From: Branchiostoma floridae
Taxonomy: Eukaryota > Chordata > Leptocardii > Amphioxiformes > Branchiostomatidae
DNA length: 64,000 nt
NCBI RefSeq assembly: GCF_000003815.2
Contig: NC_049980.1
Span: forward strand, 23,139,249 to 23,203,248
Direction of reading: 5' to 3'
The notes beneath the pieces were generated by a model. The model was given only the letters and a program-made list of their open reading frames with translations, ran no database searches and was not told where the DNA came from. Below are positions 6,601 to 42,020 of the stretch, piece by piece (position 1 is the stretch's first letter; each line of letters opens with the position of its first letter). A program made the position numbers and the translations under genes.

Positions 6601-8558
6601 AAATCACTAAAATCAGTTTCTTTATGTACAGCTTTGTGAAATAGATATAATTTGGCCACTTTAAGAACCACATTCTGAAGTATGCAAGCATAGACAACTT
6701 TCTGCATGAATTGTATTTACAGCTCATATCAGGTGGGCACTTTTCAAGATGCTGACATTTAGGAACCACGGAACCCGTACCATCTGGCGCACAGCGTCAG
6801 CAGGCATTCACGCTGATGAAGTAAAGCCGAAGCGTGATGTCTGCCCTGTGGGTGGTTGAAATCTTGACATAATCGCCTTGATCGCCCGCAAGGTGCTAGG
6901 GGAAGAGCCTTCGGGCCCACCCTGTCAATCATCATCAACCTCCTTGATCTCAGGGAGCTTTCGAGCTTGCCTGGTTTGGTCCAAGGATCTACATATATAT
7001 ATATATGTCCCGGCTATCCCAGCGTGATGCCGGTAGGCAAGTTTCATACTTTTGACTTGATTCCGTTTCGGCAAGTGTTTCCAAAGGAAGTTGGGACTTC
7101 GGAATTCGTTTTGTTTTTCTACCCCAACAAAATGGTAACAGTATATTTTGCCCTTCAAAATAATGTCGCACCAAGGGCCCGAACCCACACTTTCTGGTTT
7201 CAAAGTGATCGTCTGAAGTTTCCCTTATCTTTATTTATTCATATTCTTAACGCTACCGCTGAGAAAACAAACTCTGCTTTCATTCTATAACATTTAGCAC
7301 GTAGAAATGTGGATACGCCACTCCACGCTATATAATGAAACGGATCACGTGGTTGCTTCGTATGTCAATCATTCAGTAGCCATGGTAACCAATAAAGAGG
7401 CTACACGTCACTCAGCGGCGTTGCCATGGCCACATCCAAGCGGGGAAATCCCATCTGCCATGTCTGTTACTTGTTGCCTTGGCGACCGCCATCGGAAATC
7501 TGTGGGAAAAAGAAACCGATGTGATACCGATAAATTTCGTGGAAAACCATCGGATTTATGTTGGAAATTGTTTTCCCATCGGAAGGTCATCGTTGCTGTA
7601 TCGGAAAACGTTAAGTGGCCGACACAGTTCCGACGCAGTTCCACATGTACACAAACTATGGTGACAATACGCACAGTTTTCCGATACATTTCCAGTTATT
7701 AGAGACGATGTATTTCCGATACGGTTCAGATAATTACCGATATCCCCGTGCACTGTGTTTTGGGGGCAGTACAAAGTATTTCGCCACTAGGGCTTGCAGG
7801 TTCGACTCCTCAAAATAATACAGTATATAGTAGGGTGCACAAGGAAGTTACAAATGTTTGACTTCGTGGTTATATGTCGTTTGTGTCATAAACTGTTTGT
7901 CAAGTCAGCTGTTCACCTTTCAATTTCAGGCTGTTGGCAAGAAGTTTGTGCATGTGTTGAACCCACTGAAAGGCAGCCGGTCCTTACTGAGGGAGTGGGA
8001 CCTGTGGGGCCCCCTGGTCCTGTGTGTCATGGTGGCACTCTTACTACAGGGAGACAACGCAGCAGACACCGGAGCACCACAGTTTGCTGAGGTAAGCCAT
8101 GTAGCATTATTGCATTTACTCAAACCACAACGGACACTCCATTTTCTCCTTACCACAAAATCAAATCACTGTGAACTTAATAAAAGTTTTGGTTGTCACA
8201 GGTGTTTGTGATTCTGTGGGTTGGTGCTGTGGTTGTGACCTTGAACTCCCAGCTGCTTGGAGGTCAGCTTTCGTTCTTCCAGAGTGTGTGTGTCCTGGGC
8301 TACTGTGTCCTTCCACTCAGCATGGCACTCATCGTCTGCAGAATTATCCTGGCAGCCTCCGCCACACAGACTATCGTGTTGTTCGCCATACGGTTTGTGA
8401 CCGTTCTTCTTGGGTTTGCCTGGTCGACCTTTGCAGCAATGGCCTTTCTGGGAGACAGCCAACCAGTCAACAGAAAAGCTCTGGCAGTTTATCCAATCTT
8501 TTTGTTTTACTTTATCATCAGCTGGATGATAATATCACATACACACTCGGACACTTAG
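3618..8558 (+). CDS. YIPF6: YIPF6, Yip1-domain Golgi membrane protein
   Basis: Three exons (3618-3776, 7930-8091, 8202-8558) join in phase 0 to give 225 residues, close to the 236 of human YIPF6. The N-terminus is acidic and cytosolic, ending in a segment resembling the vertebrate 'STLNESVRNTIMRDLK' region. Exon 2 carries the family-diagnostic LLREWDLWGPLVLCV. Exon 3 carries LGGQLSFFQSVCVLGYC and the closing ALAVYPIFLFYFIISWMI. About five hydrophobic segments follow from residue 85 onward. YIPF proteins are multi-spanning Golgi/ER membrane proteins of the Yip1 family that act in vesicle traffic and Golgi organisation. The ATG at 3618 (context aacATGG) is the first in frame. Intron 1 is 4.15 kb and mostly repeat-derived. 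The stop is TAG at 8556-8558. Confidence 0.95.
3947..7757. mobile_element. Probable large degenerate DNA transposon filling YIPF6 intron 1
   Basis: A 15-bp sequence CACAGTGCACGGGGA at 3947-3961 recurs exactly in inverse complement at 7743-7757. Both are flanked by TTT, a possible 3-bp target duplication. Inside each end lies a cluster of TCCGAYA/TGTCGGA-type motifs (about 3970-4180 and 7485-7745), like the subterminal repeats of CACTA/Chapaev (CMC) elements, whose ends also begin CAC. No transposase ORF is visible in the 3.8 kb, so a non-autonomous or decayed copy is likely. Two unrelated insertions of one family could give the same picture. Confidence 0.4.
6239..6712. repeat. Two-copy tandem duplication, about 248-bp period
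   Basis: The sequence starting GGACCTTATTAACATAATTT at 6239 recurs at 6487 with few changes over about 225 bp, down to the 'gcaagc(g/a)tagacaact ... tgcatga' block. Divergence is about 10 percent with small indels. It lies inside YIPF6 intron 1 and encodes nothing recognisable. Confidence 0.8.
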
Positions 8559-9813: not shown

Positions 9814-12800
9814 TTACAGAACTGTCTCCTTCTCCAGCATACTGCTCCTTTCATTGCACACACGTGTCTCATCAATGAAATGTAGGCATGGTGTTGTAAC
9901 ATGAACCTCTTCATGGTCGTCCTCAGCAATAATTGCGTTGTCATCAGAAAATGTGGACCTTTTGTTTTCCCTGTTGTAGTCAGCAACACCATCTGACAGA
10001 GTGGACCTCTGCCGCCGAAACCCAAAACGGACGATAGAATTAGAAACAATACTGTCGGCCACAACGGAGCGCTGACGAAGCAGTTCCCAGGCTGAGCTCT
10101 TCCTGCTAAGGACTCTCTTCTTGGGCATGTTGTAACGGAGCTCGCGCCAGAACCGATGGTCAGCCCTGCTCTCTGCCTCTTCTGACCACTTGATACAAGT
10201 GACCGCTTTCATCAGCTTCTGGACCTGCTCGTTGAATATCTTCAGTGTCTGGGAGAAGTAAAAGGTTTTAGACAGATGTATGTCTTACAGAAGCAGCAGA
10301 AAGTGGGGAAGACATGAGTCAGAGCTCTTTAGCTCATATACAAAGTACCCCCTGGCCCTTTAGATACAGTACACTACACAGAAAGTTACACCCTAGGCTT
10401 ACTAGAATCCTTAAAGATACTGCCAAGCAAATCATCTGAGGGAAAATTGTCATTGTTGTCTGCCAGCCAGAACATGTTACATTATTCCTACCAACCCATT
10501 TTCATGAAGATAATCCTGAAGCATATGTTCATTACCTCGAAGTCCTCCTGGTCCTTGATTGGCTGGTACTCAATCATTACAATCCTGGCCTTCTCCCGCA
10601 GCATCTCGTCCAGAGCGACACATGATGCAAACTTCATCCACTGGTTCTTGACGTAGTTGGGAGACAGAACAAACAGCACACGGCGGGACCGCTCAATGAA
10701 CTCGATGTAGTTGTCATATAATTCTGGTTGTAAACAGGAGAATCTATGGTTACAATACAAGACATAACAGTTTATTTAGGTTTATATTGATTGATTGATT
10801 GATTGATTGATCTTATAGGGTAGTCCCTTCAGTCTAGATGACTGATTTCCAAGGGAGCCCTGAACATGTTCGCACATGTTTACATGGCGGGGTTAAGATA
10901 TTTTCCTTATTTTGCAAAAGGAAAATGTTGATATTAAGTTAAAAAACTCAATGGCCTAATATTAACATACCTGTCCCTCCAGTAAAGTCGCGATGTTCAA
11001 TCCTGACCACACAGCGACAAGTTTTCTCCAGGAAGGGCAGGAGGAGGTTCTTCACAAACTCAAACTGCTCAATATCGTACAGGATAAACACATCATACTC
11101 CTTCTGACCTGTAGAAACATTAGGCAACCATTCAAAGAGATAAACATAACATACTTTCAAAACAGACAGCAAACTGGATCTTGACAAAGCAACAAATCAT
11201 TAATCTCTTTTGGTTCTCAACCTATAAAACTAGAAGTAATTCCATATTACAGGTAATACTATTACTGGAAATTGTAGTCTGCCTTTGCTGTCTGCTACAT
11301 CATAGTACATGTACCTACACCAGATTAGCTTAAGTGATATGATAGTAGCTGCTGTTGATAATTGTTGCTATAAAATTTAATGTGAATATTTCTTTGATAG
11401 CATATCAGTTATGAAATACTGTACACACAAACAAAAAGAAGAAGACAGGGTCATACCAAGGTCTGAGAACCTGAGTTTGCCCTTTGACCTGGAACCGTTC
11501 ATGTATCCCAGGTACTTCACGTTGAGAGGCTCTCCCTCAACCCACTTCAGGAATGGATCTTCTCCTGGGGTTCCCACCTTAGCAGCAAACATAGCAAGAC
11601 ATGCTGTAAGTTTGTTTTTAGGACAGAAAGTCAACTTTGTAATGACAAGAAACAACAGTCTGAGATTAGATCATTTGGCTCTCTTGGGGATAAAAGCAAC
11701 AGCCACTACACAATTCCAAGCATTTCAAGGCTTGCCTTAATGTCCTTTAACTTGAAAACTTACAAAATTGTTTGCAGTCTTAATTCCAGCTTATAATTAT
11801 ATAGTGATAGACAAACTTTCAAACCTCGATGATTCCTTCCTTGAAGCTAACCCAGAAGGTTTTCCATTCATCCCTGGATAGAATCTGAGGTGTCAAAGCA
11901 GAGACTTCTCTCTGGTCTGACTCCCCCATCCCATGAACATGCCGGCAGATGGCAGACCTGGTGTTGTTGTCCGAACCAATGATGATTTCGTATGTGACGC
12001 CTTCAGGACCTACATTGTAAGGGTAACATTCTGTGATTGTAGGGATCTCTTACAAAACTCTGAGCAGCGAGAAATGATGTTGATACACAATGTATAGCGA
12101 CCCGAAATCTAGAAGAAACTTTGTTACACTTTGTGTGTTACACTTTTTTACACAAAGCGACAGAATAATCAGCACGTTGATTGTGGTCGCTTCAACAGGA
12201 AGAGGTCAAATGCAAACAGGAAATTTGATTTTATAGTAGAGAATTGGGAGGAAAAAAAGAGTGCAGTCCTTAGTTCATTCCACAGGTTTGTGAGATGTCC
12301 TGCCTATGGTCAATCAGTCGACATTCAGAGAAGCAATGATGTTAAACTTAATGACCTGGTTTGAAGCCAGACTGAAGCAAAAAACTAGATTAGTTTCAGC
12401 AGAGGAACTGAAAGTGAAAGGCCATTAACAAAGAAATCTTGAGAAGGAGTCCAAACCATGCCACTGAGCGACATCATTCGAAACTGGAAGGAGAAAGCAA
12501 CTTTCATGGCATGTCCTCTGCCACGAGATCTCACCAGGAAAGGAGGTAGAACAAAGAATAGCAGGTAAAGGATTTTCAAACAGAACTTGAAAAGAGCAAG
12601 CATCCCCTGGAAAGATGTTTAGGGAGTGAGGGAGCAGAGTAGTTGGCACATTGCTGCCCAATGTGCCTTCAGGCGCAGAAGGACCTAAGGGCTAAAGTTA
12701 TCTATTGGTATGACAGGAAAGAAATGACCAGACAGATTTGATGACATACCTTTCTCCTGGGAGAGCAGGACCCTGGCGTTCTGCTGCAGTTTGATGTCCA

Positions 12801-15663
12801 TGGTGAAGTGTGTCACGTGCAGCTCCTGTTCATGGAACTGGAAATCCTCGTCACCGTCAGACATGTGCTCGATGGTGTCTGTACAGCAGGAGGTTGTCAA
12901 TAAACTTTATCATGCATTGGATTGTAGTCTAATATCATAATTGATAAACACTCAAAGCTGTTCACCTTCCTTTACACTTATTATTACATCGTAAGTTTGT
13001 ATCCACTTATTTCTAGTGAAAGTGGTCATACTTTTGTTGTCAATAAACTAGCCTGAAGGACTGGTGACTGATTGAAGGGCAATTATGCACTTGTCACTTT
13101 GTTACCAATAATTATTAGCCTGTGTAATGTGAGACTATATACTGTAAATGACACTAGCAACTTTTATTGTATCAAAACTATAACACCCAAAAATTTGAAC
13201 CATATATGGTAATACATAGAAAGGCCTTGTGAATTTCTGCAATAAATGATTCTATAGACTATAGAACTCAGGTGGCAACATACTACATGTAGCTAAAGAA
13301 TGTCCCAAACATCCCTCATGAATGATCATGAGATTATTCCTATTTTGAAAATGCAAACAGCAACAAAAGCAAAAGGTACCTCCTTCCTCAAATGGCATGA
13401 ACTTGTCCTTGATCATCAGGCGGATTTCCAGTTTCTTCCAGTAATACACTGTGGCCAGAACACACAGCATCAGCAGTACAGCACCGCCCCCTGCTGCCCC
13501 ATTCCTGTACTGCTGCATTTCCTCCTTCAAATCTTCTTTGACAGGACTGCTGTTGGGATCTAAATGGACAACGGGATTCAATTATGAATCAATCAAGTTA
13601 CTTTGCAGGCATCTCAATTTAGTGTCAAAGATGAAATGTTTATCACCATTCACTCACGTTTATCGGAACGCCATCGAACAGCATCAACAGAATCTTTTTA
13701 AAGTTCAACTAAGCCCAACCTTGGACTCAGGCTAGCTGAAACAAATTTTAATGCACACCAAGACAAATGAACAAACAAAATCTGAATATAATAAAAAGAT
13801 TCCTTCCTTTTCATGAATGTGAAAATCTAGAATGAGCTCACCGTCCCCCTCTGTCAGCTGGACCTGTGCTGTGACATTTCCAAACAGGTTCTTAGCCACG
13901 CAGGTATACTCCCTGTAATCCTCAGGCTGGATGTCGGTGATGACCAGGGTTCTGTTCACAAACTCTCTTCCTGTCTCATCCTCCCTACAATTGTCAGGAA
14001 AAACATAATGATACCGTTTCAAGTATCAAACCACAGCACTTCGTGAATTCTGCTGTTCCTTCAAATTGTTGGACATACCAGACCCACAGCAACAGAGAGA
14101 GTCTTTCCCAGTTTGCATATTAAGCGCATTTCCAATCTTGTAAAATCTCTAATTCTCTGACAGAACCTTTCCAAGCCAAAAGTGAATTATTTGCAAGTCT
14201 ATGACATAGTGTGTCCAAGCCTAAGAAAGGTGTCAGCTAGCTATAAAAGACTTTCCAAGGATGCAAGCCAATCAGAACTAACCTCTCAGTATGCGGCCCC
14301 TCTTTGACCCTGTCCTTGCCATTGATAAAGGTGCCATTGACAAGCCAGTACACCTGCTTGATCACCTGCTGTACGCCCAGATACGCCGTGCAGGTGAAGG
14401 TGACGTTCTGGCCAAGGCGGCGGTACTCCACATACGCACTAGTACTGGTATCCATGGGATATAGGATGATGGGCGGTAGTGTGGTCATCGAGACTAGAGA
14501 AGATAGCAAGTCTTGGAACATTATGAGCAGCAAAACATATCCCACTGTCTCAGAGAAGAGTTCACTAGGTTGGTATTACAGGGATGGAAAATTACAACAC
14601 ATTAGGAAATGAGAATGACTTGTTGAAAGGTCTGAAAGGTCAGATGAAGTCTTAATGCTAACTGTGCAAATTGCCTAATATGTAACATCCAAATACAACC
14701 AGTTTCAACTAAAGGGGGAAAAAAATTGTCAAAGCATTGCCTCCTTTGTAGACCTTCTACGAGAGCCAGCATTGGTTGTCATTTACGTGCACCTGGGCAT
14801 TGGAGAACCTTGCACACAAATCAGCCCTCCCCAACTTAAATGGCAGTGCTCATACAAGGTCTACAAAGGAGGCTAATCAATGTGATACTAACGCTTCACG
14901 TGGAGAGAGATATGCCCAACCAGGTGTTCTGTCCCGTTGAACCCCTCACATCGGTACGTGCCGTTGTCAGCAGCGATCTGCACCGAGTCAATCTCCAACA
15001 TCTCGTGCTGGTCTCCTCTCAGACTGATCCTCTCAGTCGGCCGGTCTGTCCAGGGGTATGCTTTATTATCTTTGAACCAGGAGAAAGGGCTGCTGGGAAT
15101 GATGCAGTCCGCCAGGGGGCATCTCATCGTCACCTCCTCCCCTTCATAGGCCTTGTGAATCTCAAGATCATCAATGTAGTCACACGGATCTGTTGTATAC
15201 AGCATGAAAGAAGTCACTCATTGTGCGCAAAGATTTCACAGAACCAGGATGAGCCAACTGAATATTTGGTTTGCATTGAGATGACAGTACTTTACAGTTA
15301 GTTAGGGTTAAAAGTATTGTGTACATTTCTGTCTAAGCTGCCTGCATAGCAAACATCATGAAAGTCATTTCAACACCCCCACAGTTACGAAGTTTACGCG
15401 CGCAAACAGTCTGTACCTCCATTTTTCATGGAGGTAACAAACATAATAGATGAAATAGATAATGTGCAGGGTAGTCTAATGAGATTTCAACCATAATTGT
15501 CCATATAAAAAGTTCCTTTAAGATAGTTCTTGCTCTTACCGTAATTTGCGTAATCATACTCATAGTAGTCTTCGTCATACATGTAGTCATATGGAGCGAC
15601 TGTCACGGGAAAGGCAGATCTTCCGAGAAGAGCGAGAATCACGAATGCTGTACCGAGCACCAT
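9814..15663 (-). CDS. IL-1 receptor-like protein: SP-Ig-Ig-TM-FAMeT-TIR
   Basis: Eleven exons (15540-15663, 14893-15189, 14283-14493, 13842-13984, 13380-13559, 12750-12878, 11825-12009, 11457-11577, 10971-11108, 10536-10723, 9814-10248) join without phase conflict into 716 residues. Order: signal peptide (1-18 or so) and a Tyr/Asp-rich N-terminus; Ig1 (about 50-140, MRCP...YRCEG); Ig2 (145-258, FTCTAY...YTCVAK); TM (279-299) followed by basic KKLEIRL; a domain at 319-463 matching the farnesoic acid O-methyltransferase-like family (YEIIIG, SRDEWKTFWVSF, then GEDPFLKWVEGEPLNVKYLG); TIR at about 467-620 with box 1 YDVFILYD, BB loop RDFTGG and box 3 FWRELRY; and a Ser/Arg-rich tail. Family knowledge: a plasma-membrane receptor signalling through TIR adaptors. 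The BB loop lacks the proline of Toll-like receptors. The ligand is unknown, and the role of the FAMeT module is unknown. Confidence 0.9.
10785..10812. repeat. (ATTG)n microsatellite
   Basis: About seven ATTG units in the intron between the two central TIR exons of the IL-1R-like gene. Confidence 0.9.
14739..14873. mobile_element. 135-bp MITE-like inverted-repeat element
   Basis: The ends are GCCTCCTTTGTAGACCTT (14739-14756) and its exact inverse complement ending at 14873; similarity extends to about 24 bp with two mismatches. It is in the intron between the Ig1 and Ig2 exons of the IL-1R-like gene. I see no clean target-site duplication, so the superfamily is left open. Confidence 0.65.
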
Positions 15664-26900: not shown

Positions 26901-29008
26901 TGACATGGCCCTGTATGATAAGTAAGTAATATGAGCATAGAGCTGTCTGAAAGATAATGCATTGTTTATCAGTTTGTTTGTTTGTTTGTTTGTTTGTTTG
27001 TTTGTTTGGCTGGCTGGCTGGTTGGCTGGCTGGCTGGCTGGTTGGCTGGTTGGTTGGTTGGTTGGTTGGTTGGTTGGTTGGTTGCTTGCTTGGTTGGTTG
27101 GTTGGTTGGTTGGTTGGTTGTTTGGTTGTTTGGTTGTCCTTTCAGTTGGCTGGCTGGTTCGTTGTCCTCTCAGTCGGCTGGCTGGCTGGCTGGCTGGTTG
27201 GTTCGTTGGTTGATTGTCCTCTTAGTTGATGAAGTGATTTCATTATACAGCGTTGATCAAGGCTTCAGTGGCTGGCCAGTCAATGTCTTGCTGCTGCATC
27301 ACAACGGGACGGTGACATGGGCCTTCCCCACAGTCCTGTCCACCAGCTGTAATGTGGACGTCTCTGGCTTCCCGTTCGACGAACAGCACTGCCACTTCAA
27401 GTTCGGCTCCTGGATGCACGACGCCTCCATGCTCAGGATTGACGATAGCGTCAAAAGTGGGGATCTCTCGGTAAGACAGAGGAAACTTTTTCAATAAAGA
27501 ATAATTACATTCTTTTCCTTTCATAGTATTACCTTAACTTGAATGTCATGGTCTTCACTGCAATATCGTCTGAAAGAGTTATAATGTGTGTTTTTTTCAG
27601 CAATTGAGGGAAAGTGCCGAATGGGACGCACATTCATTCCCAGCGGAGTTTCGTAAGAAGGCTTATGGCGAGATCATTTACGATGAAATCATTTTCCATT
27701 TGATCATGAAGCGGAAATGGCCCTTTTACTTCTTAAACCTGATGTTCCCTTGCTTCATGCTGGCCCTGTTGGCGACACTGAGCTTCTACCTACCGGCAGA
27801 GTCAGGGGACAAGGTGAGACATGCATCGATAGAAATGCATCAGGTATGGAAAACCTCATAATGCCATGAATCACTCATGTACAGTTCTGCTGTGTGCGTA
27901 GCCAGATGTGAGAAATTGATATAAATGTTGGAGTCCACAGTTGGAGAGAAATCAGAATTTCCTCCCATGTTTATTGTACCATTCTATCAATTCTAGGTTT
28001 CGTTTGGAGTGACTGTGCTTCTGGCTCTCGCCGTCTTTCTCCTCATGATAGCAGAGGACATGCCACCGAGTGAATCAATTCCTTTGATAGGTCTGTGTTA
28101 ACCTTTTTATATAACAACGTTGCCATCACTTTCATGTGCGGTATTCAGACAATCAAATAGCTTAATATTCCGAGCCGTTGGCTCTAGAGCTCTTTGAATA
28201 ATACCAAAGTGTGTTCCAACTCATTCTTGTGATGGCTGTCAATGATTTCATTCTCTTGTCTCCAGGCTGGTACGTGATCGTGACTTTGGTCCTCCTGTCC
28301 CTGTCCCTGTTGCTGGGCTCCATTGTGGTCAACCTGAGCATCTGTACCGCTGACACCAAGCCTGTCCCTGCCTGGGTCCGTCGCCTCGTCCTCCGCTACA
28401 TGAGCCTCGTGCTGTGCATGGGGGATCTGAGTGAATGTCGCGTTGTTGATGAAGAGCAGGTGAACATATCAATTGTAATGAGTGATTTCCTGTTTTTTTT
28501 TTCTGTTAGAAGAAGGTTCCAAACGAACTACCGACAAATAAGTACACGTTTACCTGCTATCTGTTGCAGAAGTCAGTGGAGACCGGGAAGAGGATTCTGG
28601 ATGATAGAACCCTGCAGGTGCTTCAGATCAACACCCGAGAGGAAAATGGCCCGGAAGTGAAGAAAGCAGATGGGTGAGGTTAAATTCCTCTTCTCATTTT
28701 TCCACACCCTCTCCCAATTCAATGTACTAAATTTACCCGTCCTGCGAGTCGCTGGAAAGTTTCTCACCGGTCCTTCTCACTTTTTCTCCTGTCATAGTGA
28801 GCATCTCCCGCTGAACGGTGGAATGGAGGAGCTGCTGGATCTGGTGCGGAGTATCGCTAACCGTCTGGAGGAGGAGAGGGAGGGAGAGGCACTGGAGAAC
28901 GACTGGAAGCGTGTGGCCCGCGTATTGGACAAGTTCTTCATGGTTCTGTACCTGTTGACTAGCGTCACAGTCATTGTGTTTACTTGTGTAGATGGTATGG
29001 CTGGCTGA
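23960..29008 (+). CDS. Nicotinic-type Cys-loop receptor subunit, tandem copy 1
   Basis: Ten exons (23960-24014, 24987-25132, 25943-25987, 26812-26921, 27251-27470, 27601-27813, 27997-28090, 28266-28459, 28570-28673, 28798-29008) encode 463 residues. The 45-bp third and 110-bp fourth exons are the classic nAChR sizes. Order: signal peptide; ligand-binding domain with loop [10 protein letters not shown], Cys-loop C152-C166 (13 residues between) and [10 protein letters not shown]1 after RKWPFYF; M2 preceded by ESGDK and running [23 protein letters not shown]3 in exon 8; a short cytoplasmic loop of about 110 residues; TM4; C-terminus at DGMAG. Acidic rings at both ends of M2 point to cation selectivity. 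The loop-C vicinal Cys pair of alpha subunits is absent, so it is non-alpha-like or binds another ligand. Expected at the plasma membrane as part of a pentamer, perhaps with its neighbour. Confidence 0.92.
26973..27214. repeat. Compound (GTTT)n/(GGCT)n/(GGTT)n microsatellite
   Basis: About 240 bp of 4-bp units change from GTTT to GGCT and GGTT types in intron 4 of receptor copy 1, ending about 35 bp before the exon-5 acceptor. All three plus-strand frames are open through it, purely because the units contain no stop codon. Confidence 0.97.
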
Positions 29009-30530: not shown

Positions 30531-33500
30531 ATGTCCCGACATGTCGTCTGGTGGAGCCTTCATCTCCTCAGCATTTGGGCATCCCTCCAAAGTAAGTTGC
30601 TGCATGTTGCCGGAATGTCATTAGTGTTAGCTTTTTGGACTAAGAAATCATGTGATACACACACATGTATGTCTGTGTTTCTGTGATTCTATACTTTTGG
30701 GCATTCTTGACGCCATATTCAAGAGCTTGTCGGAAATTCATGTTTTCTTAAACAACAAGTTTGCATTCACAATACGATTTTTGGGCACAACTAATGCTAA
30801 TTTTTCAACATAATTTTCAAAGACGTTCTGGTGGCCCTACAGTGTTAAGAATATTGCGTTCAATCTTAAAGGCCCAATGTCATGTCGGTGAATTTGTATC
30901 TTTAACACATTGTTTAAGATGCTGTTCGGGACAAAATGCCTCTTAAAACCAAGCCAAGGAAAACAGCATTAATCGTGAGGTCACAGATGTACTTTCATTT
31001 GAGCATCGATTGTTGGTTTCATAAAACTCCCTGTACATTACATTCTCCCTTGTTTAATTTTTACAACATAAACTCCAGCAGCTGGATAGATTTCTAACTG
31101 GTCAGACGTTTTAAGAAGCAGTCACTATCTTAATCGGTGACTGATGTATTTGGTGCTGCCTGAACGTCTGAAAACTTGCAGTTTTCAGTTACTATCCAGT
31201 TACTTGAGTAATTGTTATCTAGTCTCTCTTATTACCTAGATGTCTAACCTTCATATCGAAACATGTTTGATTTTTCTTCCAGGCGCATTGTCACTTGGCT
31301 CACAAAAAGACCTACTTCAGAAGCTGTTAGTTGATTCCGGCTACAACAGCGACGTCCGACCGGTCAAACATGCCAATGAGAGTGTGCTGGTCAGCATCGA
31401 CCTGTCACTGGAGCAGATCATTGACCTGGTAAAGCGTTATAAAATCTACTACATTGCCGGACCAAAACGTGAAAAACATTGTCGTTAACTACACGCGAGC
31501 GCTTCTGACATGTATCCATGTGTTGATAGGTTGATATAGATTCTGCTGCTTCAGAACAGCACTAAGAAATTGTGAATGATTCCCAGTAGGAGATTGGCTT
31601 TGCCAAAGTAGGTTACAACTTGAAATGGGTTTAGTTGCAAAGTTTGATCCTGCACACCGGAAACACTCACCAAATATTTGAAATAAGTTATTGTTATTTG
31701 GCAGCATGTTGTACAGATGCCCTTATTTCAGTCAGTCTGTTCAGACGGGGATGTTTTGATGTTTGGACTGTCTATGTCAACATGATTAAGTTACTGGCCT
31801 AAATCATTTCTCTCGCCAGAAAGGGCAGACATTCACGTTACAAAATCATCTAATAATACAAAGATAATGTTGTTAGAAGGCTTAGCACGTGAAAAACTTG
31901 ACAGAAACGTATTGATTTCTGATACCTTAAGTGCAATCCAATGCAAAAATAAAATCAGTACTCATCCCATATCTCGCCATTAATGGTCAAACACCGTTGT
32001 AAATTAGTTTAAGGCAACAATACATGATCTACTACCCACTGACCCGAAACGCTCCAAACCAAAATTCCATTTCCTGAACAAAGCAACTCCCTTGGGTATG
32101 GTTATGGCAACGATTTGGAAGCGTAAGGAGCGGAAATGTTGTTATAGAAAAGTTTCATCTATGGTTGATGGTTGAGACACTTCTAGTCTTACAGCTATTT
32201 CGACAACTTGCACAGGTTAAAAGCATTCATAGAATTTGAAGTAGATCTTGTACATGAGTCACTCAGGTTCACCCAAGTACCCGTCTCCGGTGTGAGCTAT
32301 CAAAGTCAGTCACGGCAACGACGTATTATATTGTAGCTGTTCCTGGCTTATAGTAAGACAAAGTCATGTTCTCTACGTGTAAAGAAACATGTTTTGAAGT
32401 TGTTTTCCAAATCGACTACACATGTTGAAGTGTTCACTTAAATAATACAATTACAAAGTGGCAAAATGTAAGCATAAAGCATAGTTTTCACACTGTATCA
32501 CGAAGAGTGGTTTTGATGATCCTTGCAATGCTACAATTGTAAAACGGCTATTTGTGAAACAATGGGCACCTCACAATTTGCTCATCGTATTAATACATTG
32601 CAGAGTGAACCCGAACAAGTACTGAACAGCAAGATCTGGATGAAAATGGTAAGTAAGTATCAACTTAACTCAAGTCAAGCAAAGACATACCATCTTTGAA
32701 GCTTACTCCGGCCAATATTTACCGTCCAATTTCCCCAACAGCCTCACCTTTTCTGTTCCCTCCTTAATACGTAATTGTGGCACATGTTGCAGATGTGGAA
32801 GGACGTCAGTCTCCAGTGGGATCCTGATGAATATGACGGCATGACGAACATGACCATCCGGGCAGACGAAATCTGGAGACCTGATATTGTTCTCTTCGAA
32901 AAGTACGCAACTTTACTTATGACTTGTTGTAAGCGTCGTTATCATATTGTCATCATCCCATTCATCGAATGCTGTTTCTTTCATGCAAAAGCACAATGCT
33001 GTAAGTTTATAGCACACTGATTAATGTATAAACAATATCATACTTACCGTACTTAGTCCCAGGGAGGGTAGACTGACCACAAGTCGTTAATCTTCAACTA
33101 CGCAGTGTTGACCAGGGTTTCAGTGGTTGGCCGGTTGACCGTGTCAGAGTGGACAGTGATGGGACAGTGTACTGGGCCTTCCCTGTGGTAGCATCCACCA
33201 GCTGTGACGTGGACGTCGTAAGCTTCCCTTTCGACGCGCAGGCATGTCCACTCAAGTTTGGGTCGTGGCTTCATGACAGATCAGCCATCAAGCTTGACCG
33301 CACCAAGACAGCAGGGAATTTGGTGATAACTTTTAATATGAATCTGATAATTACTTTTAATACCGGGCAATGTATCTGTATCTGTATAACCGGTATAACG
33401 GCCCTTCGGCGTAAAGCTAAAGCTAGGGGCACAACCCGCTGTACGTGCGTGATGCGTGGTGTCTACGTGCCAAAACGTGGGCAATCGTTTGGGATCCGTA

Positions 33501-36166
33501 AGTGGTAAGTACGTTGTAAGCACGTACAATTCAACTCACTTGCCATTTGCGCAACGAACGATGCACGCAACCGGCTCACGGCCAGGCGTGGCGTGCAGAT
33601 CTAGACCACATACTTACGTATTATACTCTTGCCACTCCTTCCCACGTTTTCAGAAAAACGTGGCGGATATGACGTCCCACAAAAACGAACGGACAAAAGC
33701 ATGTACGGACAAAAGCATGTGCCCTTAGCTTTACACACCAGCTTCTCAAGCACGTGGCGCGGCAGCAACTGGTTATGTTAGATTGGACGACCTGTTACAC
33801 CTAACCTTTGCACATTTAATTGCAAGTGTTGTTTAAGCTAGTGAGGATGCCCCTGCAACTTGATCAAACAAGTTCTATTCCACGATAGTTCTAGGAAAAT
33901 AAGAGCCTTTGAATACATCAATCTTGATGTTTCTAGTACTCGAAGGCATGACTTTTCGTGTTCTTTTCTGGGCAGGTATAGATGGTAATCATTGATCAAT
34001 TATCCAAGGTGGCATCCATTCTATTTTGATCTGACACAATTCATTGCACAACTTATCCTCTGCAGGTATTAAAGCCAAATGCTGAGTGGGAAGTTGCATC
34101 TTTCAAGCCGATAATTAAGGAGAAAAAGTATGGTTCATCTATTTTTGATGAGGCAACATTTATTTTGGCCATGGAGCGGAAATGGTCCTTTTACTTCTTC
34201 AACCTACTGTTCCCCTGCTTCCTGTTGGCCCTGTTGGCGACACTGAGCTTCTACGTGCCTGCAGAGTCAGGGGACAAGGTACGTGATTATGTTGCTAAAC
34301 CCATACAAACCTACTCTCCAAGCAGAGGTTAGGCACCGGCTGTTTTTAACGTTTTTAGTCGTTTTTACTCAGGTTTTGACACAGCAAGATATAATACAAA
34401 ATAGAAAACCCGATAAAACGACTAAATAAAACGTTAGAAAAACAACCGGAGCCTAACCTCTGCTTGGAGAGTAATATAAATCTACATTTTCACCATTACC
34501 AAGAAGCAAGAAGAAGCCGAACTTCTAAGTTAGACCAGGTCTATGATACTATTATGCATGTCCTGTTTCTGTTGTGACATATACTTAGCTCGGTTGTGCA
34601 AAACATTCATTCATTCATTATTGACTGTCTATGCAGTACTACATAGCATTTGTACTTGTGACTTGATTTGACTTGAACGTTAGAGGTAGCGTTAGCACAG
34701 CCATGTATGCCAACACAAGTCCATTGGTTTCGAAAGGTATAGAAAATGATAATGAAAAAAAAAACACGCGTTATTCCAAGCCTTTGCAAGCTGCTGAATA
34801 CATTGATTTTGGGGTATTAATGTTACGGAACCGAACATAAGTTGATTTTAACTTATCTACAAGACTTCTGGTTCCATTGCTTTACAGATATCCTTCGGGG
34901 TGACTGTGTTGCTGGCCCTGTCGGTCTTTCTCCTCATGATTGCGGAGCAAATGCCCGTGAGTGAACATGTCCCCTTGGTATGTAAGTATCAATTAATTCT
35001 TTTCATGTTAATTGTTTTTCATGGCATGTCTGGGGCTTCAAGACTAACGTATTTTATGTATATTTAGACTGTTATCTGCATAATACACATTAGCAGATAT
35101 AAGACATTGCTGGCCATTGCCGAAGTCGAGAATTTGACAAAGGCATGTTTGTACCTATAATGACGATTTTAGATAGAAGGTATTCGTCAGGCTTTTGCTA
35201 CCAACAGTGTCTCAACCTACCTCCAGCTTGGTACGTGATCGTGACTTTGGTCCTCCTGTCCCTGTCCCTGTTGCTGGGCTCCATTGTGGTCAACCTGAGC
35301 ATCTGTACCGCTGACACCAAGCCTGTCCCTGCCTGGGTCCGTCGCCTCGTCCTTCGCTACATGAGCCTCGTGTTGTGCATGGGGGACCTGAGCGGATCTC
35401 TGGCTGTCAAACCGGACCAGGTAAAGCGATCAAGTAGAGAAACAACAGAAAAGGGGCCGAGGAACAGTCCGACGAGTGTTAAGAATAGATCTAAATTTCT
35501 AGGTATAGTATGCAAAATGCCATCTTTTGCTACTATGAGCTGAAAGTGATCGATTGCTTTGATTATCTGGTGAATTTCTTGTGTTACTTTTGTCTCAGGA
35601 AACAGATGAACCAGGAGAGAAGACGACCCTGGATGACAGCACCATGCGAATCATCCGGGCAAGTGTTGGGGAGCCGGGGGAGTACCCTGAAGGACCTAAC
35701 AAAATGGAAGGGTACGACTTATCCTAGCATTTAGACAAGCAATGTTACTTGTCTGTCTGCACGATAGATTCCGAGTCAGAGTGAAATTGTGGTTGCATTG
35801 AACAGAATCCATGGCCTATACATCCTTTAAGGTAGTAGTTCTTACAGCGCACATGGTGCAGCACATTCTACCAGTTACACAGCATAATCTGTTATTTTCA
35901 GAAAACCTAACATGGCCGGAACCAACCTTCTGATGGAGGATCTGGTGCGAGACGTGCGCAACATCGTCAGCCACCTGGAGGACGAGCGGGAAGGACAGGC
36001 GCTGGAGCACGACTGGAAGCGTGTGGCCCGCGTCATGGACAAGTTCTTCATGACCCTGTACCTCCTGACTACTCTGTTCATCATCCTGGCCACCTGCCTG
36101 GATGGCGTCGTTGGCTGGTCCACCAGGCTGGAGCAGCAAAGGCAACAACTGGAGGCAAAAGTATAA
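30531..36166 (+). CDS. Nicotinic-type Cys-loop receptor subunit, tandem copy 2
   Basis: Ten exons (30531-30591, 31283-31428, 32604-32648, 32793-32902, 33106-33322, 34066-34278, 34888-34981, 35227-35420, 35599-35711, 35902-36166) encode 485 residues, with the same intron positions and phases as copy 1. Signal peptide; loop A WRPDIVLFE (Tyr replaced by Phe against copy 1); Cys-loop C154-C168; KFGSWLHD; TM1 after RKWSFYF; GDK then M2 [23 protein letters not shown]3; variable loop; TM4; and a C-terminal extension after DGVVGW of about 18 residues that copy 1 lacks. No loop-C Cys pair. The outer M2 ring carries EQ rather than ED. Exon 5 is one codon shorter than in copy 1. Probably arose by tandem duplication of copy 1, with which it could co-assemble (inference). 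Confidence 0.92.
31082..31199. mobile_element. 118-bp MITE-like element ending CTGGATAG
   Basis: CTGGATAG at 31082 faces CTATCCAG ending at 31199, and each end is followed inwards by a copy of TCAGACGTT in matching orientation. The rest of the TIR is diverged. It lies in intron 1 of receptor copy 2, just upstream of exon 2. Confidence 0.5.
33411..33734. mobile_element. Short TIR element in receptor copy 2, intron 5
   Basis: The left end GTAAAGCTAAAGCTAGGGGCAC and the right end (inverse complement GTAAAGCTAAGGGCAC) form an inverted pair about 324 bp apart, the left one carrying a small extra GCTA-type insertion. 'GCACAACCCGCTGTACGTGCG' follows the left end. Target duplication not identified. 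Confidence 0.45.
34310..34475. mobile_element. 162-bp MITE with TA target duplication
   Basis: The near-perfect inverted ends CTCTCCAAGCAGAGGTTAGG are flanked on both sides by TA (34312-34313 and 34472-34473), and similarity continues to the TTAACGTTTT/AAAACGTTA block. TA duplication and short size fit a Tc1/mariner-type MITE. It lies in intron 6 of receptor copy 2. Confidence 0.7.
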
Positions 36167-39100: not shown

Positions 39101-40067
39101 TAAATATGACATAAAATAAACATTTGTATGGTGCATTTTTACGCCCCTTCTTTGCCAATAATGTAACCCCAACATTCATTCTGACTGTGGCGATGACCGA
39201 TAAAATCTAGTTCCCATCTAACTCCAATTAGGCTACACGACTGTCTCCAGTCTGCACCCATCTGTCAAGCTTAACGTCATTATCCGTGTCCTAATGAAAT
39301 ACTGTGGGTCTACAGACTTTCTCTCATACGTGAGCAGGTTTGTAATCTGGCTACTAACAGGGTTATTCCTTGGAAACAACAGTTGTGTTTCCGGCTAGTC
39401 GACCGGCCTTTGCCTTTTGGGGGATGGCAAGGGATATAACGTTTTTGATCTGATACCTGTGTGATCAAATTGCAGTAGAAACGTTTTAAAACATATTATC
39501 CTCATTTCCGTTGGAATGAAAAAAGTTACATAGCTAGACCCACCCAACTCAAGTACCTGTGCTTGTACAATTTATACCTGCAGCATTAGAATAGATGTTG
39601 ACAATACAAGTGCCCTGATGCATTTCAGTTTACTATGTTTGAGCTGAAATCTATTTAAAAGAAAAAAGAGGAGAATACTTTTTGGAATAGTGATAGGAAA
39701 CACAACATTACTTTAATTTTGTACATGTCGGCCTTGCGTCAGTCTATGGTATCCTAGTGTTGAGATAGAACGTGGAGATACTTGATATGCCGTTTCAGGT
39801 CTGCATCAGCAGAGTATCCTTGAGCAGATCTAGAGGTCTTGCCAAAAACAATTAATGGTCATCTTTATTGGTACAATAGTTAACAATATTAGATATTTAA
39901 ACTTAGCCCCGACACATGCTGGCTTTGTATGTCATCTACATCTAGAGTGACCTGGTAGCCTTAGCTTGGTTAGAAATGGTTAGAAATAGATGTAATATTA
40001 CAGATATATAGCCATAGACTCATACACCTAGCCTACTACTAATTGCTATTCTGTATCTGGTTTTCAG
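36167..40067. other. Intergenic region, no supported gene
   Basis: 3.9 kb containing a short (GTT)n tract near 36543-36562, a GTA/TTGTA-rich stretch at about 37020-37095 and an A7G10 run near 37581. A 170-codon ORF at 37016-37528 begins in the simple repeat and has no recognisable domain. A donor-like AGCTTACAG|GTCAGTG at 37821 could close a non-coding first exon of the downstream gene; this is speculative. Confidence 0.3.
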
Positions 40068-42020
40068 ACCAAACCCTTGATCCTTCTCACGATGAGCGCT
40101 GCAGGCTGTTTGATGCCGGGGTTTCATCACCAGTTCGGCGTCTTCGACTTCATTCGGAAAAGGTCGGAGAGCCGCCGTGTCCTCGTCGACAACGAAGAGA
40201 CTTCGGATACCCAGGTCGAGCAGTCTGCCACACCTTCTGTGTTGTCTTGTGAGAACTGCACCCTACATAACTCACCACTCCTGAAACAGCCATCACCACT
40301 AGTCAGCATCTTCCGGGCACTTGCTCTAACAAACACAAACTGCACCGACATTCACTATATCCGTCATACTGACAGCGGTGACTGCACTATCCTCGAAGCG
40401 ACACCTGGTAAGTCACTTTGTAACAGCACAGATACCGACCTTGTAGATGGCTGCTGCAGTGGTAACATATGTATGGTACACTGTAGAAACGATCGACACA
40501 CATCTAACGGGCGAACCATCTTGTCCACAGCCGACCGGAACATAAACCTGTGCAGGTCCGTCGACAGACATTTATGTAGAAGGAACGTCGACATGGACAA
40601 AGTCGTACGCAGCAGAAGTGAAGGGAACTTTGACCTTATAAAGTCGTGTAGAGACACGTTGATGAGTGATTTTCTCATTGAGCATGAAATGAAAAATTCG
40701 GGTGACACCACCACGGCTTCAGCTGTGAACTGGTCGACTGATAGGGAATGTAATGTTGATGCCATCACGCACGCAGGAGGTAACGTAAAACATGACGAGC
40801 TCGAGGCAGACGCAAAACAGGATGATAGCTATGGCGATTTGGCGCATGCCCGAGACAATGTCCCGGGAGGCGCCTACAGCTGCGAAGAGAATCAGAAACT
40901 TATTCCAAAATCTATTCACTCTGACGAAGATCCTGTCCTTAATATAAAAGCTAGCAAAAGTGAGCCAGTCTCCTTGCAAAGCGCCGCTCGCAATGTACTG
41001 TCCCTCCCAACCAAGCTGGGAACGCACTACGTGGAGAAGACAGCGAAGGAACGAAAAAGTAAGCTGAGGGAAGTTGCTAGATTATTCAAGGCCAAGTCTG
41101 AAACAGACAACATTGAGATGGAGACCCTCACGATGCCAGATGACAAGGACACCGATAACAAATCAGAATTGACGAGTTTTATCCAAGGTAAAGACGAAGA
41201 TAGCGGAAGCCTCAAATCGCGCTGGAGAAAATTCAGGTCGGAAAAGTCTTGTAAAATTGAACCCGAGACGACATCAAGAATGTCGGACAAGCAGTGTCTG
41301 GGTAGCTCCTGGAGTATTGCTGCGGGCAGAAGCTTCAGTAATGATAAAATGACTGCAAGTTTAATTGGAGAACCTAACATGGAGACAATACAGAAATATG
41401 CGTCACCTCTATCAGTCAGTTCTAACAACCTTGCAGAAACATCTGACGTACTTTCTACGTGTGACGGTGTCGTTCAGAGGCCAACAACACTGTTTACTAA
41501 GACTTCAGAATGTGATCTTCAAGGCTTTTTGGCGACGCCTATTGAATCTACAGAAGTCCTTGATGTCCAGGAGGCTTCCATGTTGATTTGCACAGAGCAC
41601 AAAGAAGACAACAATGTTACAACAGCTTCCAGACTCAAGCTTTACTTCTCTGGGAAAACAGCATCTACGGAAGACATGGGTTCAGAAGGGATGAGGAAGG
41701 CCCGCACTGGGAAACGTTCCCAGATGAAGAGTTACCATTCCCAGCCGGAGCTCCGCCCGTCTCAGGTGGAACACCGGAGTGGGGTACCCGTTCTGTGTCG
41801 GAAGTCCTCTCCCGAGTACATCGTCAAGGAACCGGTCATCAAGAAATCTCCACAGAGCTGTGAGCAGAACGCGCCTCTCCTCCGACTGAAGACCCGACTA
41901 TTCAAGCAGAAGTCGCCGTTGTTGGCAGGAGGGAAGTTAAAGTTCAACCTAGCCCCGCCGTCACTGGCAACTACAGCCCCGTACAAGGTTAAGGTTAATA
42001 CACCTAAGCTGAAGCCATAA
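40068..42020 (+). CDS. Large single-exon protein of unknown function (642 aa)
   Basis: An open frame runs from a strong acceptor (CTGGTTTTCAG|ACC at 40067/40068) to TAA at 42018-42020. The first ATG is at 40092 (acgATGAGC), giving 642 residues. Because the frame is open back to the acceptor, an upstream coding exon is also possible. I recognise no domain. No signal peptide or TM is visible; the protein is Ser/Thr/Asp/Lys-rich and probably mostly disordered. A basic-hydrophobic module recurs: ARLFKAKSE near residue 326 and TRLFKQKSP near 598, with looser versions SRWRKFRSEK and SRLKLYFSGK between them. RSRSEGNFD and YHSQPELRPS look like phosphorylation or docking motifs (inference). The size and unbroken frame argue that it is a real gene. 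Confidence 0.7.
   Translation, partial: TKPLILLTMSAAGCLMPGFHHQFGVFDFIRKRSESRRVLVDNEETSDTQVEQSATPSVLSCENCTLHNSPLLKQPSPLVSIFRALALTNTNCTDIHYIRHTDSGDCTILEATPGKSLCNSTDTDLVDGCCSGNICMVHCRNDRHTSNGRTILSTADRNINLCRSVDRHLCRRNVDMDKVVRSRSEGNFDLIKSCRDTLMSDFLIEHEMKNSGDTTTASAVNWSTDRECNVDAITHAGGNVKHDELEADAKQDDSYGDLAHARDNVPGGAYSCEENQKLIPKSIHSDEDPVLNIKASKSEPVSLQSAARNVLSLPTKLGTHYVEKTAKERKSKLREVARLFKAKSETDNIEMETLTMPDDKDTDNKSELTSFIQGKDEDSGSLKSRWRKFRSEKSCKIEPETTSRMSDKQCLGSSWSIAAGRSFSNDKMTASLIGEPNMETIQKYASPLSVSSNNLAETSDVLSTCDGVVQRPTTLFTKTSECDLQGFLATPIESTEVLDVQEASMLICTEHKEDNNVTTASRLKLYFSGKTASTEDMGSEGMRKARTGKRSQMKSYHSQPELRPSQVEHRSGVPVLCRKSSPEYIVKEPVIKKSPQSCEQNAPLLRLKTRLFKQKSPLLAGGKLKFNLAPPSLATTAPYKVKVNTPKLKP

Follow-up and report, generated by a model that had tools for sequence, protein, structure and literature searches.

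A gene in the lancelet Branchiostoma floridae is predicted to encode an IL-1R-like receptor with a farnesoic acid O-methyltransferase-like (FAMeT) domain, PF12248, between its transmembrane (TM) helix and its TIR domain. The gene lies in the window, by which we mean the whole 64,000-nucleotide stretch of DNA that was analysed, and a second, diverged gene elsewhere in the same genome has the same domain order. Our reading, to which we assign a probability of about 0.5, is that a FAMeT domain was shuffled into an IL-1R-like receptor, was retained there, and would have a binding or regulatory role.

Gene structure of the receptor

Splicing of the window DNA joined 11 minus-strand exons, running from 15663 to 9814, into 717 codons that include a single terminal stop and contain no internal stops. 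The predicted receptor is 716 residues long. All introns are of the GT-AG type and their phases are consistent throughout. Re-splicing reproduced, exactly to the base, the exon coordinates proposed in the first-pass annotation of this DNA. The exons are listed below with the evidence for each.

15540..15663, minus strand: exon 1, signal peptide and Tyr/acid-rich N-terminus (YDYMYDEDYYEYDYANY); ATG, GT donor, similar Tyr-rich frame upstream in the paralogue on contig C14
14893..15189, minus strand: exon 2, Ig domain 1; splice phases, Pfam Ig in two stretches
14283..14493, minus strand: exon 3, first part of Ig domain 2; splice phases, Pfam
13842..13984, minus strand: exon 4, second part of Ig domain 2; splice phases, Pfam
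13380..13559, minus strand: exon 5, stalk, TM helix (about residues 280-299) and juxtamembrane stretch, ending in phase 1; hydropathy, phases
12750..12878, minus strand: exon 6, first third of FAMeT, preceded by a phase-1 intron; splicing, Pfam
11825..12009, minus strand: exon 7, middle of FAMeT, donor GAG/gtttga; splicing, Pfam
11457..11577, minus strand: exon 8, end of FAMeT, followed by a phase-1 intron; splicing, Pfam
10971..11108, minus strand: exon 9, TIR box 1 (YDVFILYD) and BB loop (RDFTGGT); splicing, Pfam, structure-database alignment
10536..10723, minus strand: exon 10, middle of TIR; splicing, Pfam, genome search
9814..10248, minus strand: exon 11, end of TIR (FWRELRYNMPKKR), C-terminal tail and stop codon; splicing, Pfam, genome search

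Two side observations concern this gene. Retention of intron 7 (window 11819-11827, minus strand, GAG/gtttga) would add one residue before a stop, leaving a TM receptor without a TIR domain. Directly after the signal peptide, exon 1 (window 15540-15663) encodes a Tyr/acid-rich N-terminus (YDEDYYEYDY), whose counterpart in the C14 gene is DDYYYDYYSYY; such a stretch could be tyrosine-sulphated.

Domain architecture

Pfam and hydropathy analysis of the spliced frame gave the order signal peptide, Ig, Ig, TM, FAMeT, TIR and C-terminal tail, in agreement with the layout that the first-pass annotation had read from the letters. The profile match to PF12248 that it had named as a check was obtained at residues 332-450 with 86.7 bits and an E-value of 1.6e-24 in the whole protein; the excised domain scored 90.9 bits, against a curated cut-off of 24.2 bits. 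A whole-genome profile search with PF12248 on unspliced DNA arrived at the same locus independently (E 8.8e-11). The TIR match covers residues 468-624 (E 1e-18) and the Ig_3 match falls in two stretches (E 3.9e-17). The mean hydropathy over 19 residues exceeds 1.3 only at residues 1-25, the signal peptide, and 277-304, the TM helix. The single chain thus combines Ig domains, one TM helix and a TIR domain, as in IL-1R-like receptors, with the sides of the membrane assigned from topology. These E-values, together with the same domain order in the C14 paralogue, exclude a chance match. As far as the genome sequence can tell, we are highly confident that the Ig-Ig-TM-FAMeT-TIR architecture is real.

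When the Ig region was compared with solved structures, the best matches were IL1RAPL1 (E 1.1e-10) and IL1RL1 (8.3e-10), followed by FGFR4 (1.8e-8). For the TIR domain the best match was TLR1 (E 5.1e-13; TLR1/6 51 bits), with IL1RAPL2 at 2.9e-11 (45.6 bits) and IL1RAP at 43 bits. Within exon 9 we take YDVFILYD to be TIR box 1 and RDFTGGT to be the BB loop, which in the alignment has Gly where TLR1 has Pro. The FWxxLRxxMP ending of the domain presumably resembles that of IL-1R receptors. The catalytic Glu of SARM1-type NADase TIR domains is, on our assumption, the one in the WCxxE position; here WMKFA is aligned with WCHYE of TLR1, which places Ala at the Glu position. The domain has both box 1 and the FW-containing end, and its NADase Glu position is Ala; it is therefore likely of the signalling type and not an NADase.

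A diverged paralogue on contig C14

A genome search with a TIR-end protein query returned 21 matches, including both window exons. Among the weak matches, behind two other TIR genes, was an exon on C14, a large contig of the same genome (53% identity, E 3.4e-4), which lies slightly downstream of two PF12248 matches on the same strand. A tblastn search of 30 kb of C14 with the window protein (E <=1) recovered Ig1, Ig2 in two exons, TM plus juxtamembrane stretch, FAMeT in two exons, TIR start and TIR end, in order and on one strand. The best of these pieces had an E-value of 2e-16 and the weakest 0.002; one extra match paired Ig2 with the Ig1 exon (E 0.79). An open frame with a signal peptide and Tyr-rich stretch lies upstream. 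The second gene therefore reads signal/Tyr-rich, Ig, Ig, TM, FAMeT, TIR. Pfam matched its FAMeT domain to PF12248 with 98.9 bits (E 2.8e-28) and found two Ig stretches. Its TIR is only partly visible, the middle being hidden by a run of N. The acceptor of its TM exon is ambiguous: of two candidates 17 nt apart, we used the acceptor that preserves both phase 1 and the reading frame of the TM helix. The first exons were joined by eye.

Segment by segment, the two proteins are 31-59% identical, except for the tail at 23%. Identical residues number 15/41 in the signal/Tyr-rich segment, 32/85 in Ig1, 34/111 in Ig2, 10/30 in stalk plus TM, 10/17 in the juxtamembrane stretch, 52/138 (38%) in FAMeT, 14/26 at the TIR start, 21/43 at the TIR end and 18/78 in the tail. 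The FAMeT domain is thus not less conserved than the Ig domains. Local alignment of the two FAMeT domains with BLOSUM62 scored 259, compared with a mean of 27.3, an SD of 4.8 and a maximum of 50 for 1000 shuffles. Rough Nei-Gojobori estimates for this domain were dN 0.63 and dS 2.06, and because dS is near saturation the resulting dN/dS of ~0.3 shows only restrained protein change. The domain contains two internal introns in the window copy, on contig C2, and one in the C14 copy, so some intron change followed the duplication. Because the C14 paralogue has the same order, neither an erroneous gene join nor a recent chance event is a likely source of the fusion; this diverged copy indicates a real, retained domain arrangement.

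Side of the membrane

The one TM helix is followed by a basic juxtamembrane stretch. Since there is a single helix and the TIR domain is C-terminal, FAMeT is predicted to be cytosolic, provided that the TIR domain is cytosolic. Topology thereby upholds the cytoplasmic placement proposed in the first-pass annotation.

The cysteines of the domain were also compared by eye. A Cys directly follows the W-x-F motif in 13/19 other sampled FAMeT domains, often together with a Cys near the start of the domain, and in 0/2 fusion copies. The pair looks like a disulphide, and loss of the W-x-F Cys from the fusion domains would fit a reducing cytosol, which we regard as a weak hint. The copies on C4 and C275 also lack this Cys. 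So does a FAMeT domain on C6, one of six lacking it, whose neighbours are exons for C-type lectin, EGF and REJ domains; the Cys is therefore not a clean marker of membrane side. At this C6 locus (~3.60 Mb; L068:3472-9999, plus strand) FAMeT has a C-type lectin exon on one side and EGF and REJ exons on the other, surroundings that we take to be polycystin-like.

At the C4 locus (~6.07 Mb; L067:4988-5569 and 8062-8337, minus strand) no intron interrupts the FAMeT domain. A doublecortin exon lies on the same strand at a distance of 2.5 kb, and a near-identical copy of this FAMeT is found on the small contig C275 (L069). The doublecortin exon scored 24.6 bits with DCX (cut-off 22) and 26.1 bits with DCX2_DCDC1 (E 9.4e-6), just below the cut-off of 27.8. 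Because it lies near a DCDC1-type doublecortin exon, this FAMeT domain probably belongs to a cytosolic protein, and the locus is a probable second non-secreted setting for the domain. The first-pass annotation names arthropod FAMeT proteins and secreted or lectin-like invertebrate proteins as settings of the domain; the C4 copy adjoining a DCDC1-type exon suggests that it is not restricted to secreted proteins. A literature search found no report of DCDC1 with farnesoic acid.

Origin of the FAMeT module

In both the window and the C14 gene the FAMeT module is flanked by phase-1 introns. For comparison we sampled 28 FAMeT loci of the genome, the best-scoring 8 and 20 out of 123 and 108 matches. 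After duplicates were merged, 20 different domain ends remained, including that of the C14 fusion, and 17 different starts, the fusion not counted. By eye, 14/19 of the other ends are G/GT in phase 1 and 14/17 of the starts have an AG acceptor in phase 1. Of the five remaining ends, two belong to the near-identical C4 and C275 copies and are ambiguous, one has no clear donor and two end in a stop; the three remaining starts, on C6, C13 (one) and C155, are ambiguous. Exon shuffling is the likely origin, since phase-1 flanks occur in both copies and in most sampled FAMeT genes.

The two fusion domains share the ending K-L-[RK]-F-x-D-L-G and keep the signature positions, 18 columns that are invariant among six sampled domains. 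In a tree built from 16 selected FAMeT domains they grouped together with a support of 94/95, just below the 95/80 mark of the tree tool; the branch of the window domain is long (1.49).

Genome-wide, at least 123 PF12248 matches were counted exon by exon, several of them clustered on C3, C13 and C14, and they represent a large expansion of FAMeT in this genome. When the starts of these matches were compared with those of at least 91 TIR matches, the window locus was, among the matches listed, the only FAMeT-TIR pair within 100 kb, at a distance of 1.2 kb; the next-closest pair among them is 107 kb apart on C3. As both counts are lower bounds, further pairs may exist. The C14 copy is absent from the TIR matches because much of its TIR reads N.

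According to an extract of PMC4284660, exon shuffling in lancelets is the fastest in metazoans, is biased to 1-1 phase exons and creates new domain pairs at a rate above 10 per Myr. At such a rate a new domain combination is expected, and the fusion is less surprising. We propose that a FAMeT exon module would have been shuffled into the phase-1 intron that separated the TM/juxtamembrane exon from those encoding TIR, most likely in a single event before duplication to C2 and C14, after which both copies would have retained it. One acquisition before the duplication is the simplest reading, and we consider it quite probable.

Other searches and features of the window

A phmmer search of the PDB with the FAMeT domain gave no match up to E 10. 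A two-row FAMeT profile gave one PDB match at E 0.96, which was taken as chance, and a six-row profile gave none. The FAMeT pattern was not found in the viral collection, and none of its 50 matches in prokaryote genomes was confirmed.

Elsewhere in the window, on the plus strand, a Yip1-type exon (8184-8555) and two Cys-loop channel ligand-binding exons (26958-28657 and 33077-35540) scored above cut-off, each accompanied by a transmembrane exon just below cut-off. Among 83 frames scanned there were also a glutamate-receptor-type frame and a P450 frame, not individually placed. An open frame of 662 residues (40032-42017, plus strand) had no Pfam match at E 0.001; by eye it is of low order and Ser/Thr-rich. 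Rfam gave no match at gathering score in the whole window.

Possible role of the FAMeT domain

In the reading we prefer, the Ig domains would bind an extracellular ligand and FAMeT would fold in the cytosol beside TIR, most likely binding a ligand or partner protein without acting as an enzyme. It would bring together, space or hold back the TIR domains, and might in this way gate TIR signalling. According to an extract of PMC10015273, which also cites Burtenshaw 2008, FAMeT is poorly characterised and may not be an enzyme: reliable evidence of methylation has never been obtained, its role in arthropods is unclear, and a fly FAMeT mutant showed no effect on juvenile hormone. We rejected an enzymatic role on this literature alone. 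A binding role is our best guess because FAMeT is perhaps not an enzyme and because of its other settings, namely adhesive proteins, CPAMD8 and a protein whose title refers to microbe binding.

A mis-joining of neighbouring genes, an assembly error or a pseudogene is one alternative, the gene model coming from genome sequence alone and intron 5, between the TM exon and the first FAMeT exon, being 501 nt long. Against it, the phases all fit, the exons contain no stop or frameshift, and the same order recurs in the C14 copy, with restrained protein change between the two. Mis-joining of a gene pair was rejected on the matching phases and the paralogue, and we consider an artefact of any of these kinds very improbable. 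The module may instead be subject to regulated splicing, with exons 6-8 acting as a cassette that is included in some transcripts only, the main product being a plain IL-1R-like protein. Exons 6-8 form a symmetric 1-1 module of 435 nt whose skipping leaves an open frame of 571 residues, the exon 7 donor gtttga looks weak by eye with a stop one residue beyond, and splice variants with one and two FAMeT domains are reported for insects (PMC10015273, extract). However, symmetry of the cassette follows from exon shuffling anyway, and we consider this rather unlikely as the main mode of expression. Regulated splicing would not contradict the architecture.

A further possibility is that FAMeT simply separates the TIR domain from the membrane, as a neutral or structural spacer left by frequent shuffling and without a function of its own. 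The reported pace at which lancelets gain new domain pairs, above 10 per Myr (PMC4284660, extract), would favour such an outcome, as does the identity of FAMeT between the copies (38%), which is similar to that of the Ig domains and not higher. On the other hand, both copies keep the FAMeT signature, with the 18 invariant columns of six domains and the rough dN/dS of ~0.3. A spacer need not keep the domain core and its Pfam score (E 2.8e-28 for C14), although the need to fold could explain this by itself. We judge a spacer unlikely, if somewhat less so than regulated splicing. It is more doubtful still that the receptor monitors the outside and the inside of the cell alike, the Ig domains binding an outside ligand and a cytosolic FAMeT, as a relative of a FAMeT protein that binds microbes according to a title, detecting a microbial or damage molecule and gating TIR; signalling would then need, or be changed by, two signals. 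We believe that a binding or regulatory role for the retained domain describes the receptor better than these alternatives.

FAMeT is often found in secreted proteins. Here, by topology, it is cytosolic on an immune-type receptor and has been kept in two diverged genes. The receptor therefore offers a natural experiment on FAMeT function, readable through TIR signalling, for which skipping of the exons would provide a clean control. To the 1-1 phase shuffling reported for lancelets (PMC4284660, extract) the fusion contributes a case that was retained.

Comparison with known systems

The first-pass annotation knew of no described receptor with this domain order, and our search of the open-licence PMC literature likewise gave no match. 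In the same literature no report was found of FAMeT with TIR or with amphioxus; databases, supplements and subscription journals may list one. Among the titles and abstract starts of open-licence PMC papers naming PF12248, none concerned TIR or an IL-1R-type receptor; the title of one refers to GABA-A receptors.

With the IL-1R family and IL-1R-like receptors of vertebrates and cnidarians the window receptor shares Ig domains, one TM helix and TIR. It differs from the IL-1R family in having two Ig domains plus FAMeT between TM and TIR, and its best solved TIR match is TLR1. A view cited in an extract of PMC5094078 is that Ig-TIR proteins arose independently in cnidarians and vertebrates.

PF12248 is common to the window receptor and a range of other proteins. 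The FAMeT proteins of insects and crustaceans carry PF12248 singly or in several copies, often together with DUF3421, and are not described as receptors in the extract of PMC10015273. Sea-star Sfps, which are adhesive, contain PF12248 and are secreted; no function is known for FAMeT in either sea stars or molluscs, according to the same source (PMC9382459, extract). Oyster MFCP contains PF12248 and has 'microbe binding activity' according to the title of a reference only. The DCDC1-type gene on C4 has FAMeT in a presumably cytosolic protein without the W-x-F-C cysteine, like the fusion copies; unlike the window receptor, it yielded no match to TIR when six frames of the locus were scanned. CPAMD8 is an extracellular protein. 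It too has PF12248 in common with the window receptor (PMC9363628 and PMC9358689, extracts).

Unusual TIR combinations are also reported from lancelets themselves. The amphioxus immune repertoire is reportedly covered by Huang 2008 in Genome Research. In the extract of PMC2575513, Zhang et al. 2008 list 28 domain combinations with TIR for amphioxus and report 20 as specific to it; a word search for 'methyltransferase' in the main text of that paper gave no hit. Like these lancelet hybrid TIR genes (TIR-SAM, TIR-NACHT, TIR-Laminin and others), the window receptor has its TIR domain in an unusual combination.
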